Source: Farysia itapuensis
Taxonomy: Eukaryota > Basidiomycota > Ustilaginomycetes > Ustilaginales > Ustilaginaceae
Length of the DNA: 64,000 bases
Reading direction: 5' to 3'
Assembly: GCA_023212645.1 (NCBI GenBank)
Contig: JALBYC010000003.1
Coordinates: 1-64,000, forward strand
Part shown: piece after piece, positions 3,717 through 11,537 of the stretch
How the letters are laid out: every line of letters starts with the position of its first letter
Numbering within the stretch: position 1 is the first letter of the stretch
Position numbers and translations under genes: made by a program
The notes under the pieces: generated by a model
Database searches by the model: none
Seen by the model: only the letters and a program-made list of their open reading frames with translations
What the model was told of the DNA's origin: nothing

Positions 3717-4943
3717 TGAGAACAGATGGGAGAAGGTATGTGATGAACAGAGGCTCGTCTACATTGACCTGCCCTATTTATCTGTCTCTGTTCGGACGGC
3801 GGCGCACGCTACGACACCTTTGGGGCACAGCATACACCGCTCGAGGTATCAATGAGAGATTGCACGTCATGCCAAGTCTAGCTCGTAGCGCACTAAGGCC
3901 AACTTCAGCAGTGCCGACGAGGCAAAGGGAGGTTGGGTGTGAGAATGGTACGACTTTGATGCTTGCTTGGCGGTGGTGCCAAGAGGACGACAGACATCCG
4001 GTTGGTCATGGCGTATAGCACACTTTGTCTGCCCCACACGCAGGATGTGCCTGACCCTGGACGGCGTTTGGCGAAGAGTGGCCGCTGTTGAATAGCGTCA
4101 TTGATGCGATGGCCCTGAGCGACAGTTGAATTTGCTTGGCAGGTGATTTTGGCCTTGGCACTTGTCACCTTCCGAGCCGAGACACCATTTTGGCATTCGA
4201 CAGTGAAAACCTCGTGGCTGCTGTGCAGACACAGCATTCGCGTGGACCATGTGTCAGAAAGAAGGCACACTGATCACGTTGATGGGTGTGTGGAAGATCA
4301 CTGACGATACACAGCGAGTAGGCTGGTGGGACTTGAGTGAAGATCGCCGCTGCAGATCCGACAACACAGCCTTTGCCGATCCCTGGGAAGGTACCAGACC
4401 GCTAGCGGGTGTACAACGGTCGATCTCGTTCTAATGCGTAGTTCGTCTCGGATCTGTAGTCACAGCCGTCGTCTCGTCGCTTAGAGATCAGAGCAGTTTG
4501 CTGGGCACATGATGCCAAGGCCGACTTCATGTCCCAGGTCCCTTGATCGCCACAAGTGTTCTCCGCGGATACCACGTCATGACATCGGCAGGTATCCTAC
4601 CTCGTCAGCTTGATTCCAAGAACAAGCTCGGTTACCTCTTTCGTGCACGTTGCTCGGGCAGGTTCAAGACGACTATACCAGAAATGCGCTTCGAAGTGGC
4701 TGTCGAGCACGGCAAATGCTGCGCTTCTTGAGGGCCACGGCTATCTTTGGCAGGTGTCGAGGCGAGCAACGAGCAGGGGACAGTCGGCATCTGCTGTTCC
4801 TGCAACACGTCATATCAATGGTGTCGAGCGATGTTTGTACACAAGAGTGTAGTGGAAGAAACGCAAAAGCCGTGCACGCGTGCACGGTAAAATTAGACAA
4901 TTTGTTACTTTTGTGCTAACGTCTTCTTATCTGCCATCTTGCG
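3717..4943. promoter_or_regulatory. Divergent intergenic region, CHRD gene / uridine kinase
   Basis: A 1.2 kb interval between divergently transcribed genes. Short chance frames are present (for example 3905-4270 on the minus strand) but none resembles a protein family. The right end contains features of a 5' UTR intron for the uridine kinase gene: branch-site-like TGCTAAC at 4914-4920, a pyrimidine-rich stretch, and GCAG ending at 4949. An 18-bp perfect palindrome lies at 4870-4887. Confidence 0.5.
4870..4887. repeat. 18-bp perfect palindrome
   Basis: CCGTGCACGCGTGCACGG at 4870-4887 is self-complementary over its whole length. It sits 57 nt upstream of the first ATG of the uridine kinase frame. 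Its last base begins a possible GT splice donor (4887-4888). It may be a dimeric transcription factor site or a hairpin in the leader; the sequence alone does not say which. Confidence 0.8.
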
Positions 4944-6797
4944 ATGCAGGCCGGCAAGATCATTCAGAGGCCGTCGGGCAACGGCACACCCATACTCCAG
5001 GCTCTCGATACATCCGAGGATTCTGCCAAACCTCTGCTAGCCAAGTCAGCAAAGAGCTCATCGACCACTCGATCCAAGACCATTGTCCTTGCCGATGCTG
5101 GTCGTGCTCCCTGGTACAATGCGGCAGGAGAAGCAGTACCCGCCTACGTCGTGGGCATAGCTGGTGGTTCTGCAAGTGGAAAGACATCGGTAGCCCGTTC
5201 CATTCTCAAGAATCTTCCCAATGTGCCATGGGTGGCTATCGTTAGTCAAGATGCATACTACAAGTCACTCACTCCAGAACAGTCACGGTTGGCATTCCAA
5301 GACTCTTACGACTTTGATCACCCCAACGCATTCGACTATGATATCCTCAAGCAGTGCATTGATGACTTGCGTCATGGGAGAGCCGTCGAGATTCCGGTCT
5401 ATAGTTTCGTACAACATCAACGCACTTCAGAAACCAACTACTTGTACGGCCCAGCCGTGCTCATCGTAGAAGGTATCTTTGTGCTGCACGATCCCGAGAT
5501 TCGCAAACTTCTCGACCTCAAGGTCTTTGTGCAAGCCGACTCGGACCTGATGCTTGCACGTCGGATCAAGCGAGACATTGTCGAACGCGGCCGATCCGTT
5601 AGTTCTATTCTGGACCAGTACTTGCGCTATGTCAAGCCTGCCTTTGACAACTTTGTCTCTGTGACTGCCAAAAACGCCGACATGATCGTACCCGGTTCCA
5701 ATAACGAGGTAGCAATCGAAGTCATCAGTCAGCACATGGAAAAGCAGCTTCGAAGCCGATCGATGAAGTTGCGTGCCGAATTCTACAAGACTTATGCTGG
5801 CCCAGAGTACGACCTTGTCTCGCAGGATTCAGCAAAGAGTCACCCAGACACGGATCTCGGCCAAGACGCTGAATCTCTACAGAACTCATCGCTGCCGGCC
5901 AATGTGATGATGCTACCGCAAACGCCGCAGCTGCAAGGGCTTCTGACCCTCTTGCACGATCGCACCACAGCAACAACCGAATTTACCTTCGCCTGCAAGA
6001 GAGTCGGCACGTTGGTTGTCGAGCTCGCTTCGACGCTTTTGCCATATCGAGAAAAGACGATCCAAATTCACGGCGGTAGGTCGCACGTGGGCCACGAGCT
6101 TGACACCACGAGCGTGTGCTCTGTCTCGATCTTACGGTCTGGCGCAGTGCTCGAGCCATCGGTTCGGCGCGCTTTCCCAGCGATGTCCCTCGGCAGCTTA
6201 CTGATTCAGTCTAACGAAGAGGACGGCGAGCCGCATCTGTACGATGTCTCGTTACCATCCTTCATCAAGCGGAGAGACACGGCAAAAGACTCGTGGGTGT
6301 TCTTGTTGGACGCACAGATCGGAACAGGCGCGGCAGCCTTTATGGCAATACGCGTGCTGCTGGATCACGCCGTGCCTCAACATCAAATCATCTTTGTCAC
6401 CCTACTGGCCTCAGCCCAAGGTGGTGTTCATGCTCTCAACCGCGCTTTCCCCCAAGTGCGCATTGTCGTCGCTGGCGTGGACCCGGGCTTGCAAAAGCTG
6501 AGAATACCGCTGCAAAGCGTCCTTGCTCGGAGCAGCACCCACCATGGTGATTCGCCGAATCCTGTCGGGCGCTATGCAACAGACGAAGATGACCTGACGC
6601 CCGGGCTGAACGGCTTCCACTTGTCAAATTCTTCGCCAGCACTTGAAGAACGCCATACCAAGGCAATGGTACCATCAACGGCCCGCACTAACTCCACAGA
6701 TCGACAGCTGAGTGCAAAAGGGAGCAGAGTCGTCTTTGCCATCACGCCGGGCTGCGGATCGATCGGAGACCGGTTCTGGGGCACTGGAAACCGCTAA
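4944..6797 (+). CDS. URK1: Uridine kinase - uracil phosphoribosyltransferase-like fusion (Urk1 type)
   Basis: Cytosolic pyrimidine salvage enzyme that phosphorylates uridine/cytidine. The P-loop GGSASGKTS is at residues 74-82. It is followed by SQDAYYK, YDFDHPNAFDYD, the IPVYSF substrate loop and the LARRIKRDIVERGR lid, as in fungal Urk1. Residues about 310-617 form a UPRT-like domain with the PRPP-loop variant GTGAAAF and the closing motif PGCGSIGDRFWGT. Between the last UPRT strands is a poorly conserved Ser/Thr-rich insertion of about 75 residues (roughly 515-590). The start is uncertain: the ATG at 4944 lies inside a likely 3' splice site (TGCTAAC, then pyrimidines, then GATGCAG|GCC). An upstream exon from ATG 4818 spliced at 4886/4950 would be in phase (23 codons), but its donor GTAAAA is weak. 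AATAAA at 6824 may be the poly(A) signal. It converges with the Dap1-like gene, with 37 nt between stop codons. Confidence 0.92.
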   Translation: MQAGKIIQRPSGNGTPILQALDTSEDSAKPLLAKSAKSSSTTRSKTIVLADAGRAPWYNAAGEAVPAYVVGIAGGSASGKTSVARSILKNLPNVPWVAIVSQDAYYKSLTPEQSRLAFQDSYDFDHPNAFDYDILKQCIDDLRHGRAVEIPVYSFVQHQRTSETNYLYGPAVLIVEGIFVLHDPEIRKLLDLKVFVQADSDLMLARRIKRDIVERGRSVSSILDQYLRYVKPAFDNFVSVTAKNADMIVPGSNNEVAIEVISQHMEKQLRSRSMKLRAEFYKTYAGPEYDLVSQDSAKSHPDTDLGQDAESLQNSSLPANVMMLPQTPQLQGLLTLLHDRTTATTEFTFACKRVGTLVVELASTLLPYREKTIQIHGGRSHVGHELDTTSVCSVSILRSGAVLEPSVRRAFPAMSLGSLLIQSNEEDGEPHLYDVSLPSFIKRRDTAKDSWVFLLDAQIGTGAAAFMAIRVLLDHAVPQHQIIFVTLLASAQGGVHALNRAFPQVRIVVAGVDPGLQKLRIPLQSVLARSSTHHGDSPNPVGRYATDEDDLTPGLNGFHLSNSSPALEERHTKAMVPSTARTNSTDRQLSAKGSRVVFAITPGCGSIGDRFWGTGNR

Positions 6798-6834: not shown

Positions 6835-7490
6835 TTATTGCTCTGCTTCGTCGGCCAGCTCGCCGACAATGCCGTATTTGCCGGTAAAGTGTGATTCCCA
6901 CTCCTTCATGTTTTTGCTGTGCAATGGCAAAGGTCAGCTAGGTACTTCGTCTCTGCGTGAGATTGGCAAACTTACATCTCGCTGGGAGTCAAGTCTGTCA
7001 GCTTATCAATCGGCTGGTCCAGGGGTGTCAGCACGTCCAGCTCGAAGCTCTGCTTGGCCATGCCTCTTGACGCATCTCTGCCCGCAAAGTTGCCGTAAGG
7101 ACCGCCTGGTCCGTAAAAATTCTTGCCTTTGGTCACATCAAAGACCTTTCTGTTGATGCACAGAAGAATCCGTCCCTCATCTGAACCCTCGACGCCTGTG
7201 CCATCGTATATGGCAAGAGTTCGCGGCGTATACTTCGTCCATTCGACAGTATCTGGATGCTTAGGCGGCAAGTAGGTATAGCGATCTCCCGGAGCAGTGT
7301 CGAACGAGCGTGCTTCTGCCACAGATGGCGTCCAGCGCGAAGAGTATGGATTCGAGACTCGCAGAAGTGGAAGTAGGACCCACAAGACAGCCAGGAAAAG
7401 TACGATGTTGAGCGGGTTGGAGTAGACCGACTCGGCCATAGCCTTCGCCTGCTCAGCAAGCTGTGGCCAGCTCTGCTTTGCCGTTGCCAT
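6835..7490 (-). CDS. DAP1: Dap1/PGRMC-type cytochrome b5-like heme protein
   Basis: A two-exon gene of 198 codons: exon 1 7490-6976, intron 6975-6917 (59 nt, GTAAGT...GCACAG), exon 2 6916-6835. The N-terminus has one membrane segment (about residues 18-36, IVLFLAVLWVLLPLL). The cytochrome b5-like MAPR domain follows: the TPRTLAIYDGT strand, ILLCINRKVFDVTKG, and the diagnostic FYGPGGPYGNFAGRDASRG heme-pocket loop with Tyr residues. The spliced exon adds the conserved MKEWESHF...KYGIVGEL end, which supports the intron. Known family members bind heme and support P450 enzymes of sterol synthesis at the ER (yeast Dap1 with Erg11). The first Met after the upstream open frame (7490) gives the family-typical length. 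It shares a 413-bp upstream region with the SAC C-terminal half-gene. Confidence 0.9.
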
Positions 7491-7903
7491 TGTAACGCTT
7501 GTTGGCTTTTGGTAAAGAAGAAGGTTGATTTGAAGGTGTGCGTTAGCGGTTGTGATCCGGGATTTCCTGAACCGATTTCCGACGTCAACATTTGGCTTAC
7601 CTTTTGCGCACACAGTGTGAGTGTTCCTTGTCCTACTATTTCCTGCACACATCAAGGACCACAAAGAGCAGCTCCAGAGAATCCGAGCGAGCACGAAGGC
7701 TAAGAGCTCTTCTGCCTCGAGCGCCTTGTCCCACGATCTTCCTCAACACTGCATGCAGCCTTCCACAACTTCGTGGATCGAAAATGTTAGACTTGCTAAT
7801 GTGGAGAAACATGGGTACATGCCTGCATGCCTAGCATGCCGCGTGCCGGTGTGCCAGGGTCCAGTTTAGCGCGGACTCCTGCACTCATACCACCAAGATC
7901 GAC
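7491..7903. promoter_or_regulatory. Shared upstream region of the Dap1-like gene and the SAC C-terminal half-gene
   Basis: 413 bp between two divergent start codons. No convincing protein frame. If the SAC C-terminal half was inverted into place, this must now serve as its promoter, so the Dap1-like gene's upstream region may have been captured as a bidirectional promoter. A CAG resembling a 3' splice site immediately follows the ATG at 7904 (ATGCAG|GAC), so an unseen leader exon is possible. Confidence 0.45.
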
Positions 7904-9196
7904 ATGCAGGACAAAAGGGACACAGCCGTGGCTCCCAAAGAAGCTGCAGGTGTATCCGAAGCCAGTAAAAGCGACACGAAAGCAGATTTCAGCTTTGAGA
8001 TAACCGAAAAGGCGCTCGACGATGCTTACAACGATGTTTGGGCAAACAACGCCAACGCCATCTCGCACTGCTACTCGAACACGGATGCGCTCAAGGTCGA
8101 CTTCACACGCACTGGCAAACGCAGTTTCCTTGGAATGATAAGTAAGTAGCACCTTCTTACGTCCACGCTCCAGCACACACTGACCTTTCTGCGCTAGACG
8201 ATGCAACGAATTCGGTATATCGCATGGTCCAGGGCGCCGTGACCGACTTCTTCCGCCAGACCGTGTTGGACTTCATCTACGGATCTATAGGACTGAACGG
8301 CCTGGAGCGCTACTATGATGACCTCAAAAGCCGAGACCCATCCGAGGCTGTACGTTTAGCACGAGTGCGAGCCTCTGCTATCGAGACATGTCAGCGGGAA
8401 ATTGTGCCACACACCGATACCGTCATCGCCAGCTGGACTCTATGCTCGCCGATGGAGCCCAATCGTATTCAGGCGCTCAAACTCGAGGAGAAAGTGGTCT
8501 TGTTGACTCCCAAGGCGCTATATGTCTGCAGCTACGATTTTGGCAACGAAAGACTCAATGACTTTGTCAGAGTCCTCGTTGGCGATATCACGTCTATCAA
8601 ATCAGGTAAGACACAAAGGCTGATCACCAGAGTTCAGATCTGTGTGCTGATATCCTTCCATTTCATAGGACTGTACGTGACCAATCCTGCTGAGTCGTCT
8701 CATCCAAGGGACAATTGGGGCTTGGTGATTCACTATCTCAAATCAGAAGGTCGGAGCAACTCGACCGCTTCGATCAAAAACATCACCACCAAGAGTGTCG
8801 GGTCTGGTATCGATGCCGCACCAAGCATGTTCGCCTTCAGAGCCATCTCCGACGAGGTTGAGACGTATTCCTCTATGGCCACCGGCTCGCGGCATCTCCA
8901 CCACTCTGTCCGTAGTCGAACCGTCTCACATGACGAGGACGAATTTTTGGATTCGCAAGACAAGGTAGCGCGTATAGTTCAGCTTCTTTGCGAATGCTGC
9001 GCTGACGTAGGTGCCTACGATCCCGATGAGCCCGACTCATTTGTCACAGAGGAAACAATTCAAAGGTATGTTGCGTTATGACTAGTGAGTACAGATCGCA
9101 CGCTGACTTTCTTCATGCAGTCTGGACGAAGCCAAGTCGATGATGTCGCTATTTGGACCGCTGATCGACGGTCTGAAACGCCGACTTTGGCTTTGA
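7904..9196 (+). CDS. SAC phosphatase C-terminal half: end of SAC domain plus hSac2 domain
   Basis: A four-exon gene: 7904-8141, 8198-8605, 8669-9065, 9121-9196; 372 codons after splicing. All introns have GT...AG ends and keep the frame. After a unique N-terminus of about 35 residues it reads [13 protein letters not shown] (about 42-54), then [22 protein letters not shown] and [16 protein letters not shown]. In SAC2/INPP5F-like proteins these segments form the end of the catalytic SAC domain, after the CX5R loop. The hSac2 (PH-like) domain follows, about residues 110-260, with a Ser-rich tail. The catalytic Cys is absent. The missing N-terminal part of just such a protein is the adjacent gene on the opposite strand (11537-9318). 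Together they cover a whole SAC-hSac2 protein without obvious loss. On its own this product should be catalytically inactive but could bind membranes or partner with the other half. Confidence 0.85.
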
Positions 9197-9317
9197 ACGA
9201 TCTTCACACGACATACCCAGAGCTCAATTTGCACACAACACAAGAGAGACGTTGCTCACGATCAAGGTCATGTGGGTATATTGAGAACCAAAGAGTCGTG
9301 ATGTATGACACGGCTAC

Positions 9318-11537
9318 CTAGGAAGTAGATGCGCTATCGCTAGCGCCGCTGATCCGTATACCAAGCGTGCCAAGTTGATGCGCGAGGACGTGTCTAGCGA
9401 AAGCCGATTGTACCACATTGGTACGATCAAGACAATCAAGGCAGGACACTCGGAACGCGCCGTTCTGCTTTGCCACGACTTGCGTCAGTGGTTTGGACGA
9501 GGTGGCGCTGATCCGTTGGTGGTAATACTGCATGTGTTCGAGCGTGTCCTGCATCTGATAGATAAGCTTTCGCACGTTTTCGAAGCGCATGCCTGAACAT
9601 TCCTTGTGGAAGTCAAAGTCGACGTACTTGACTTTTTGCTTCCATGCCGATTCGGTCGCATCAGACTCCTTTGCTAGTTTGTGGACAGTTTTGCGGTACG
9701 CTTCCGATATGGCACCCTCTTTACCACCCTGTTCGGCCAGATTGATGCAGGTCACGATGCCGTACCGTTCGACTTGGGCTGCAAAGTGCTTGGTGCAAGC
9801 TGCAAGATTCTCATCCGACCCACGCTCCAGCACAGGAGGCGGCTTCAGCGTAAAGGGCGACTGAGACCAGAAAAGCGGAATAGATCCTCGGAATTGGATG
9901 AATGATAGGACGTCTCCGCTCAGACTACCCGAGATGCTCTTGCGCAAAACATACACTAGCTGTTCCGTCTCAACGTAGTTGGCTACTTGACCAGCTTCAT
10001 TGATGCCACGACGTTGGTAGCGTAAACCGGCGCGCTCCTTTGACCGACGCGAGATCACCATCATTTGACAACGTATTTCGTCAGATGCTGCTCCAGCCTG
10101 CCCGGAAGCAACAGGAGCGATGGGTAGCGCAACAGTCTGGATATAACCTTGCATGACTGGAAGAATGTAAGCATGAAGCCCAGCCTTGATGAGATCTTTG
10201 CACATGTGCTCGTTATGCCAGAAGCGGCGATCGGCTCTTCTCCAGAGTGGCAAATTGGCGTAGGGTTCCTGCAGCGTTAGAAATTCCGGCTGTTTTGCGG
10301 CGGTCGAAGACTTGCTGGTAGCGCTAGACGAGGTCGAAGACGATGTTTGCGGCGCGTCATTAGCCGTCGTGATCGGCTTACTTAGAGCTTCGTTCTTCCT
10401 CTGTAGGGAAGTGGTGAGATCAAAGTCGTAGGAGTACCAGAACTCGCCTCGAGCAAAGTGTTTGGCTGTTTCGCGAACGACCTTTTCCTCGAGCTCGGCC
10501 TGTTTCGCAGAATGCCATTGTTCCTCCGCTGACACGGTCACCTGACCCTCTGGCTTGGGTACTTCGACCGAGTCGATAGCTATGTCTGTCATTTCGTGAT
10601 TTTCTCCCTGTTTGCTCAAGCTTGGTTGCATGCGTCCGTCTGAGACAGCTCGTGCAGCTTTGGCAAGCCAGGGACGGGATTTAGGCATGTGCAACGTGTC
10701 CATGCGGCTGCTGCCTGAAGAATCTGTGAAAAAGGGTTCCTTTGAGATGGCGGCTGGGGTCTCGACATCATCAAAGTCGGAGTCGTCATCAGTCCCATCG
10801 CCGCTGTCTGACGCTGGCGCAGTCTCTTGGCGATTGGCTGAGCTTTTGGACATCTTTAAGATGAGAGACTTGACCGCCTGTGTTGCTTCAGGTAGTAACA
10901 AGGGAATAGGCGCGACACCTGTGCAGCAGTAGACAGGTCGAGTAGCGTGAAAGTAGTTTCCAATCACTTTGCTGGACGTGATGACAAACAAGTAGCTGCT
11001 GCTAAACATCTTTGTGATGCCAACGATGCCGTGGCACTCTAGCTGGTCGTCTGGAGAGTGTTGATCGACCAGGGATCGCCAAGCAGCTGGCTGAAGTGGG
11101 CTGATCTGAGCTTCCTTGCTCCAGCTGATCAAAAACCCAGCATCCAAAGAGGAGCTTGCACTGTTCGCCCCTCCATTGCGGTTTGCAGACGCACTGATAG
11201 CGCCGGAGCTGCCCAATGACGCGACTCTGAAGCCATCGCCCGAGCCAAACGTGCTAGGAGGGCTGGAGCTGACCATCTGGGGAGATTGAGAGGAGTGGAA
11301 GTTAGAGCTCTTTGGGAAAACTAAGAGACCTTGCTGGGTCACAAGGATGCCTACGCGCTGTTCTGGCGAAGGGTGCGAAAAGGGTGGTATGGTCCAAGCT
11401 GCTGACGCCATGGATGTTGCTCGCGGTGGAAAGGAAGGCATCGGACCACTTTTGGTCGGTGACCTAGGTGGCCTCTGCTTGGACGGGTCGTCCTTTGTTG
11501 GACTGCCTGTGCCGGATGAGAACATGCCCTTGAACAT
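9318..11537 (-). CDS. SAC-type phosphoinositide phosphatase, N-terminal half, truncated after the catalytic loop
   Basis: A single-exon frame of 739 codons. Residues 1-60 are Pro/Ser-rich. The SAC N-lobe includes SSYLFVITSSKVIG and GEFWYSYDFDLTTS. The catalytic lobe has FWHNEHMCKDLI, RRSKERAGLRYQRRGI, VANYVETEQLV, IQFRGSIPLFWSQ and the phosphatase loop CLDCLDRTN with Cys699 and Arg705. Translation stops 34 residues after that Arg (end SASTS), whereas SAC domains continue for roughly 100 residues, including the WANNGD...FTR-GKR block. That block is encoded by the neighbouring convergent gene at 7904-9196. The family dephosphorylates PtdIns4P and related lipids at ER, Golgi or endosomal membranes. 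Whether this truncated product is active is doubtful unless the missing lobe is supplied in trans. I see no in-phase splice donor near its 3' end that would rescue it. Confidence 0.88.
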   Translation of the reverse strand: MFKGMFSSGTGSPTKDDPSKQRPPRSPTKSGPMPSFPPRATSMASAAWTIPPFSHPSPEQRVGILVTQQGLLVFPKSSNFHSSQSPQMVSSSPPSTFGSGDGFRVASLGSSGAISASANRNGGANSASSSLDAGFLISWSKEAQISPLQPAAWRSLVDQHSPDDQLECHGIVGITKMFSSSYLFVITSSKVIGNYFHATRPVYCCTGVAPIPLLLPEATQAVKSLILKMSKSSANRQETAPASDSGDGTDDDSDFDDVETPAAISKEPFFTDSSGSSRMDTLHMPKSRPWLAKAARAVSDGRMQPSLSKQGENHEMTDIAIDSVEVPKPEGQVTVSAEEQWHSAKQAELEEKVVRETAKHFARGEFWYSYDFDLTTSLQRKNEALSKPITTANDAPQTSSSTSSSATSKSSTAAKQPEFLTLQEPYANLPLWRRADRRFWHNEHMCKDLIKAGLHAYILPVMQGYIQTVALPIAPVASGQAGAASDEIRCQMMVISRRSKERAGLRYQRRGINEAGQVANYVETEQLVYVLRKSISGSLSGDVLSFIQFRGSIPLFWSQSPFTLKPPPVLERGSDENLAACTKHFAAQVERYGIVTCINLAEQGGKEGAISEAYRKTVHKLAKESDATESAWKQKVKYVDFDFHKECSGMRFENVRKLIYQMQDTLEHMQYYHQRISATSSKPLTQVVAKQNGAFRVSCLDCLDRTNVVQSAFARHVLAHQLGTLGIRISGASDSASTS

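Follow-up and report, generated by a model that had tools for sequence, protein, structure and literature searches.

Can one catalytic domain be divided between two genes and still be maintained? This question is raised by a locus of the smut fungus Farysia itapuensis, in the first 64,000 nucleotides of contig JALBYC010000003.1 (assembly GCA_023212645.1; this whole stretch is here called the window). Two genes for a SAC phosphoinositide phosphatase, which we call the N-half and the C-half, lie convergently on opposite strands of the window, with their stop codons 121 base pairs (bp) apart. Our analysis supports the view that they are one ancestral Sac2-type SAC-hSac2 phosphatase in two complementary pieces, with no conserved block lost. 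Judged from its sequence, the enzyme is probably built from two separate chains that complete one catalytic domain.

The two halves and the site of the break

An earlier reading of the window from its letters alone (the sequence-only reading) had described both halves as convergent. Their coordinates and orientation were borne out by the open frames, which run from 11537 to 9318 on the minus strand and from 7904 to 9196 on the plus strand:

9318-11537, minus strand: N-half gene, encoding the SAC domain up to and including the P-loop CLDCLDRTN, with the next helix; a single open frame of 739 amino acids (aa)
7904-9196, plus strand: C-half gene, encoding the remaining SAC catalytic part (WANN...TRTGKR...FRQT) and the hSac2 domain; 372 aa, four exons, stop included
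7904-8141, 8198-8605, 8669-9065 and 9121-9196, plus strand: C-half exons, with three GT-AG introns and no inner stops
7904-8000, plus strand: C-half leader, opening with an 11-residue motif; missing from the unsplit Violaceomyces protein and partly conserved among smut C-halves
8142-8197, plus strand: C-half intron 1, at a site identical in unsplit relatives
8606-8668, plus strand: C-half intron 2, at a site identical in other smut C-halves
9066-9120, plus strand: C-half intron 3, at a site identical in unsplit relatives

The N-half matches the Pfam Syja_N/SacI homology domain (PF02383) over the full profile (positions 1-305 of 305, E-value 1.1e-81) and contains the catalytic CX5R(T) P-loop as CLDCLDRTN. 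It terminates shortly after this motif, as the sequence-only reading had noted, although at 32 residues and not 34. The last conserved SAC block (WANN... and its continuation) is not located with the P-loop and sits on the other chain, the main exon frame of which matches Pfam hSac2 (PF12456) with an E-value of 7e-25. The N-half aligns to residues 147-425 of yeast Sac1 (3LWT), and P0070, the Testicularia homologue of the C-half, aligns to residues 436-504 of the same chain. These consecutive stretches, together with PF12456, confirm that the C-half holds the missing remainder of the SAC domain and the hSac2 domain.

The C-half start at 7904 is the first ATG downstream of an in-frame stop located just before 7835. 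At the site of intron 1, seven predicted proteins read into the intron (six unsplit relatives and P0102, a smut protein described below); at the site of intron 3, the unsplit P0030 and P0090 do so, as do several smut C-halves. Since introns 1 and 3 are common to the unsplit relatives, the C-half piece derives from genomic DNA, not from complementary DNA, and the break was made at the DNA level.

Alignment to nine unsplit proteins puts the break within a variable loop, and the number of conserved positions lost is zero. Two unsplit relatives carry extra residues at this site, approximately 40 in P0042 and 50 in P0044, so it tolerates insertions. When the unsplit P0023 of Violaceomyces was modelled with AlphaFold (mean predicted local distance difference test score, pLDDT, 67.1), the site of the break lay at residues 497-507, between helices 475-496 and 508-531, and Foldseek matched this model to Sac1 (8C81, 3LWT) and to the human hSac2 domain (4XUU). 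For the C-half model of P0070 (mean pLDDT 69.2), the hSac2 structure 4XUU ranked first among the fold matches. An ancestral SAC-hSac2 gene of the Sac2/INPP5F type would have been broken in the loop between the helix that follows the P-loop and the FNDxWANN helix. We also observed an unsplit gene shown as two models on one contig (P0036 and P0093), which are cut at intron 1, past the WANN segment, and not in the loop.

Once the smut halves are lined up, they show the same two domains in the same order as Sac2/INPP5F; however, these domains are on two chains, and the cut lies inside the SAC catalytic domain instead of between the domains. The unsplit SAC-hSac2 proteins of Violaceomyces, Tilletiaria, Tilletia, Jaminaea, Parajaminaea and Plicaturopsis have orthologous sequence on both sides of the break, in one chain where the smuts have two. 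Yeast Sac1 (3LWT, 4TU3, 8C81), to which the smut halves correspond as described above, is likewise a single chain, and the matched region stops before any hSac2-like part.

Distribution and age of the split

The sequence-only reading had allowed for an intact second copy elsewhere in the genome and for two unrelated genes in relatives. We searched the window's own 13.7-megabase assembly in six frames with introns ignored and found no intact SAC-hSac2 copy. The hSac2 family gave one match, in the C-half gene, and the C-half sequence also gave one; of the four SAC genes, the other three are 27-42% identical to the N-half. Unsplit forms exist in relatives, so the two are not unrelated genes there: the unbroken SAC-hSac2 gene for which the sequence-only reading had proposed a comparison with related smuts was found in Violaceomyces, Tilletiaria, Tilletia, Jaminaea and Parajaminaea, and also in Plicaturopsis, with predicted chains of 717-1280 aa.

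The homologue search with the N-half, in which only the 7992 candidates sharing the most words were scored, yielded 65 proteins, and that with the C-half yielded 36; both lists were clustered at 90% identity, and names are partial. Separate N-only and C-only proteins were found in the smuts Ustilago, Sporisorium, Testicularia, Melanopsichium, Kalmanozyma and Thecaphora. Twenty-two database proteins (P0002-P0022 and P0027) were assigned as smut N-halves by name or likeness. CLDCLDRTN is present in 21 of them, all of which end 24-38 aa beyond it, as does the window's own N-half, while P0019 ends before the P-loop. None of the 24 smut C-half models contains the P-loop (three short smut-like fragments, P0098-P0100, were left out of these counts). 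A conserved 19-residue C-half stretch is present in 20 of the 24, including P0092, which lacks DFTRTGKR; the four models without the stretch appear to be cut short. Among the unsplit proteins, we noted that P0041 and P0091 (the latter of Jaminaea rosea) carry the P-loop as CLDCLDRTG or CLDCLDRSG instead of CLDCLDRTN.

Linkage was inferred by taking records with exactly equal contig size as one contig. By this measure, the N-half and C-half are apparently linked in eight records: Ustilago tritici, U. loliicola, Thecaphora frezii, Testicularia cyperi, a record filed under chicory and three other contigs. Adjacent locus tags agree with the linkage in U. tritici, U. loliicola, T. frezii and the chicory record. 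A Dap1-like cytochrome b5 gene is also linked in four of the eight, with the N-half alone in four more, and with the C-half alone in two. The proteins of the chicory record (P0021 and P0092; Cichorium endivia, L1887_56518/56517) look smut-derived, and the plant assembly is apparently contaminated with smut DNA. The Dap1-like proteins of Malassezia and Tilletia (P0137, P0143, P0145, P0151 and others) are named "Dihydrodipicolinate synthase", probably through a mix-up of gene symbols.

An assembly error or a decaying gene in one isolate is hardly credible as the source of the division. The locus lies 7.9-11.5 kilobases (kb) from the start of contig C23, which could favor such an error; however, the same two-gene state is present in many independent assemblies, the frames are open and residues are near-invariant. 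Both misassembly, which the sequence-only reading had named as a danger, and a pseudogene are contradicted by the independent assemblies of relatives with the same division. On these comparisons, the split is not confined to one locus and is also older.

In Violaceomyces palustris the protein is unbroken and carries the same smut-specific set of 17 residues. In trees of nine split and eleven unsplit taxa, all split taxa, including Thecaphora, formed one clade with ultrafast bootstrap values of 98 (both halves) and 97 (N-half), and Violaceomyces was sister to this clade with values of 100 (both halves), 96 (N-half) and 100 (C-half). The ancestor of Uleiellales/Violaceomycetales and Urocystidales/Ustilaginales has been dated to approximately 209 (137-285) million years, with weak maximum-likelihood support (<70) and a posterior of 1.00 for that sister relation (PMC4738420). 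Thecaphora is assigned to the Glomosporiaceae (PMC6194141), which are assigned to the Urocystidales (PMC4738420). On the gene trees, the split is placed as younger than the ~209-million-year node and older than the divergence of Ustilaginales and Urocystidales. The break would have occurred by the time of the common ancestor of these two orders, with Urocystidales represented here by Thecaphora alone.

Conservation of the SAC remnant

The SAC remnant in the C-half (62 columns) is the most conserved segment that we measured, with a mean pairwise identity of 97.3% among the nine split taxa; the same columns show 80.1% in nine unsplit taxa, a more diverse set. Among the split taxa, the P-loop with its helix shows 81.8%, the linker and hSac2 stretch 77.8%, the N-half SAC core 67.5% and the remaining C-half sequence 56.1%. 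Between the window and Violaceomyces, 61 of the 62 residues are identical. The WANN...TRTGKR segment is, we assume, part of the SAC active centre. The sequence-only reading had regarded both halves as free of stops, with three clean introns in the C-half, and as maintained; the open frames, the GT-AG introns and the conservation in smuts agree with this and support the maintenance of both pieces.

The P-loop was present in 68 of 102 examined proteins. The WANN segment was found in the same chain in 41 of these by pattern and as a variant in five by eye; the remaining 22 are smut N-halves, including that of the window. The idea that each chain has an independent function, with the N-chain working or regulating alone and the C-chain serving as a free hSac2 adaptor like vertebrate Mover/TPRGL, appears unlikely in the light of these data. 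An hSac2 protein without a SAC phosphatase domain does exist in vertebrates, namely Mover (PMC6856015), and the hSac2 domain is confidently modelled in the C-half alone. However, the part of that source used here describes no SAC catalytic remnant in Mover (PMC6856015), whereas the smut C-half retains its 62-column remnant and does not fit a description of hSac2 without any SAC part. An adaptor needs no such remnant, yet the remnant is more conserved than the linker and hSac2 stretch, and outside the smut N-halves all P-loop proteins examined carry WANN or its variant in the same chain. Because a free adaptor needs no SAC remnant, and an N-chain without it has no normal SAC domain, we favor two chains that rebuild one catalytic domain.

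The sequence-only reading had also offered trans-splicing, by which both transcripts would be joined into one messenger RNA and one protein. The exact complementarity of the two parts is what such joining would predict, but the N-half has its own stop, the C-half starts at the first ATG after an in-frame stop, and its leader motif is common among smuts. The GT sites between the P-loop and the stop (GTACCA, GTGGTA, GTACAA, GTCCTC and GTATAC) include none that we judged a strong splice donor, and trans-splicing is very improbable. Of the options that had been listed, the two-chain enzyme is favored, as inferred from conservation.

Under the two-chain reading, each half would be transcribed and translated separately, with the N-half using its old promoter and the C-half the region that it shares with the Dap1-like gene, and the two chains would bind each other. 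The C-chain would supply the TRTGKR-bearing catalytic part, so that the active site would be completed in trans. Sac2 dimerises in a manner that requires its hSac2 domain (PMC6856015) and is a phosphatidylinositol 4-phosphate (PI(4)P) phosphatase (PMC6829663). In the smuts, the hSac2 domain may provide dimerisation or membrane placement, and the substrate may be the same lipid (PtdIns4P), as for Sac2.

Layout of the locus and origin of the split

The surroundings of the pair bear on how the split arose:

6972-7490, minus strand: Dap1-like cytochrome b5 gene, first open frame (exon 1), inner end approximate; linked to the split pair in other smuts
7491-7903: gap separating the starts of the Dap1-like and C-half genes, which lie head to head; 413 bp, where the left junction would fall under an inversion
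9197-9317: gap between the convergent stops; 121 bp, where the right junction would fall under an inversion

A 625-aa open frame at 4920-6797 on the plus strand, putatively uridine kinase-like by eye, is an ordinary neighbour gene.

The sequence-only reading had proposed an in-place inversion. The convergent, adjacent and complementary halves fit this proposal, and inversion accounts well for this window without being proven to have caused the split. In the window's lineage, the layout would have arisen from inversion of a segment of approximately 1.2-1.8 kb bearing the C-half, which would have placed the C-half head to head with the Dap1-like gene. A comparison of the junction regions (9197-9345 against 7491-8020) gave one direct 9-mer.

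The convergent layout was directly seen in this window only. In Violaceomyces, where the gene is unsplit, the SAC and Dap1-like genes are on contigs of different length (114788; 74293). Scans of viral-contig and genome-contig collections and a near-identity plasmid BLAST found no relative. Layout was also examined indirectly, with predicted proteins that run past their true ends, by checking pairs of peptides for a single DNA sequence that could code for the two at once. The positive control in the window gave a run of 114 nucleotides (nt), and the tails of two C-halves matched their own C-end in a different frame (runs of 32 and 45 nt). Overlap with the Dap1-like gene or the N-half was never clearly above that with shuffled sequence. 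The best antisense runs, 29 nt for P0085 and 27 nt for P0095 against null maxima of 23 (six shuffles each), were not taken as signal, since the N-half used for P0085 came from another species and the one used for P0095 from a contig of different length.

One smut protein departs from the split form. P0102 (209 aa; two contigs, up to 6,844 bp) runs in a single frame from within the SAC domain across the P-loop into a tail resembling that of the N-halves, then a leader-like loop (...KVATSVAP...) and C-half sequence as far as intron 1. Its nearest relatives are within the smuts: U. trichophora for the N part (75.6 and 76.7%) and U. loliicola for the C part (71.0%). It begins inside the SAC domain, and its upstream part may be broken or mispredicted. 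P0102 represents a re-join, a joined form that was kept, or a fault of the assembly; should it be genuine, this natural fusion supports the halves acting together.

P0102 bears on another possible, if doubtful, origin: fission on one strand by a stop and start or an insertion in the expanded loop, with inversion later in the window's lineage and the joined form kept or regained in P0102. The N tail, leader-like loop and C part of P0102 in one frame would fit such a history, as would the sighting of convergence in the window alone. However, the upstream-extended C-halves P0076, P0081, P0087 and P0092 fit no N-half end in any frame, with runs of 18-24 nt against 17-26 nt in shuffled sequence; the N-half was from the same contig for P0087 and P0092, shuffles were made for P0087, and larger tandem gaps are still allowed. 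One-strand fission concerns the cause of the split and is compatible with a two-chain enzyme.

The full account combines these elements: an obligate two-chain lipid phosphatase, its active domain completed in trans since before the Ustilaginales and Urocystidales parted, made by an inversion inside the catalytic domain through which the detached half acquired a new start and promoter, and later put back in one frame in at least one smut. We give it about an even chance of being right in all its parts.

Several observations weigh against the two-chain reading and the proposed inversion. The junction regions have no inverted 9-mers in common (shuffled mean 0.31). Convergence is an observation on the window, and the one-frame P0102 indicates that the layout is not uniform among smuts; for these reasons inversion is no more than a proposed cause. 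The split clade has a bootstrap value of 58 in the tree of the C-half alone. The correlation of 0.95 between N-half and C-half distances is expected from common descent alone. When the C-half is modelled alone, its SAC helices have pLDDT values of only 52-66; in the unsplit P0023 model, the WANN helix has 71-80 and most of the remaining SAC part 44-55, so that C-half pLDDT hardly discriminates. Some species show a single half by name (the N-half in Sporisorium graminicola, Pseudozyma hubeiensis, Ustilago trichophora and Moesziomyces; the C-half in Pseudozyma flocculosa), which is no evidence of loss because of the clustering and the partial names.

The closest analogue of the smut split is cox2 in the mitochondria of scoliid wasps, a gene broken into two complementary genes; it was found by screening for segmental inversions, and its polypeptides are described as apparently heterodimeric (PMC5374615). 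In contrast, the smut split is nuclear and old, and its halves are directly adjacent. In the literature collection searched, no paper combined hSac2 and Ustilago, and the titles and abstract openings among the matches listed for gene fission, split genes and SAC phosphatases named no split SAC enzyme.

Our reading would correct annotation, since the halves are now named separately as "related to SAC1" and "HSac2 domain-containing". A cut within the catalytic domain would be expected to kill a nuclear enzyme gene; here, both pieces persist across two smut orders, with the remnant nearly frozen. The smuts would thereby provide a natural split phosphatase and an example of gene fission for which both an unsplit sister and an apparent re-join exist, and may offer a route to asking how an enzyme of one chain can turn into an obligate dimer with no dead intermediate.

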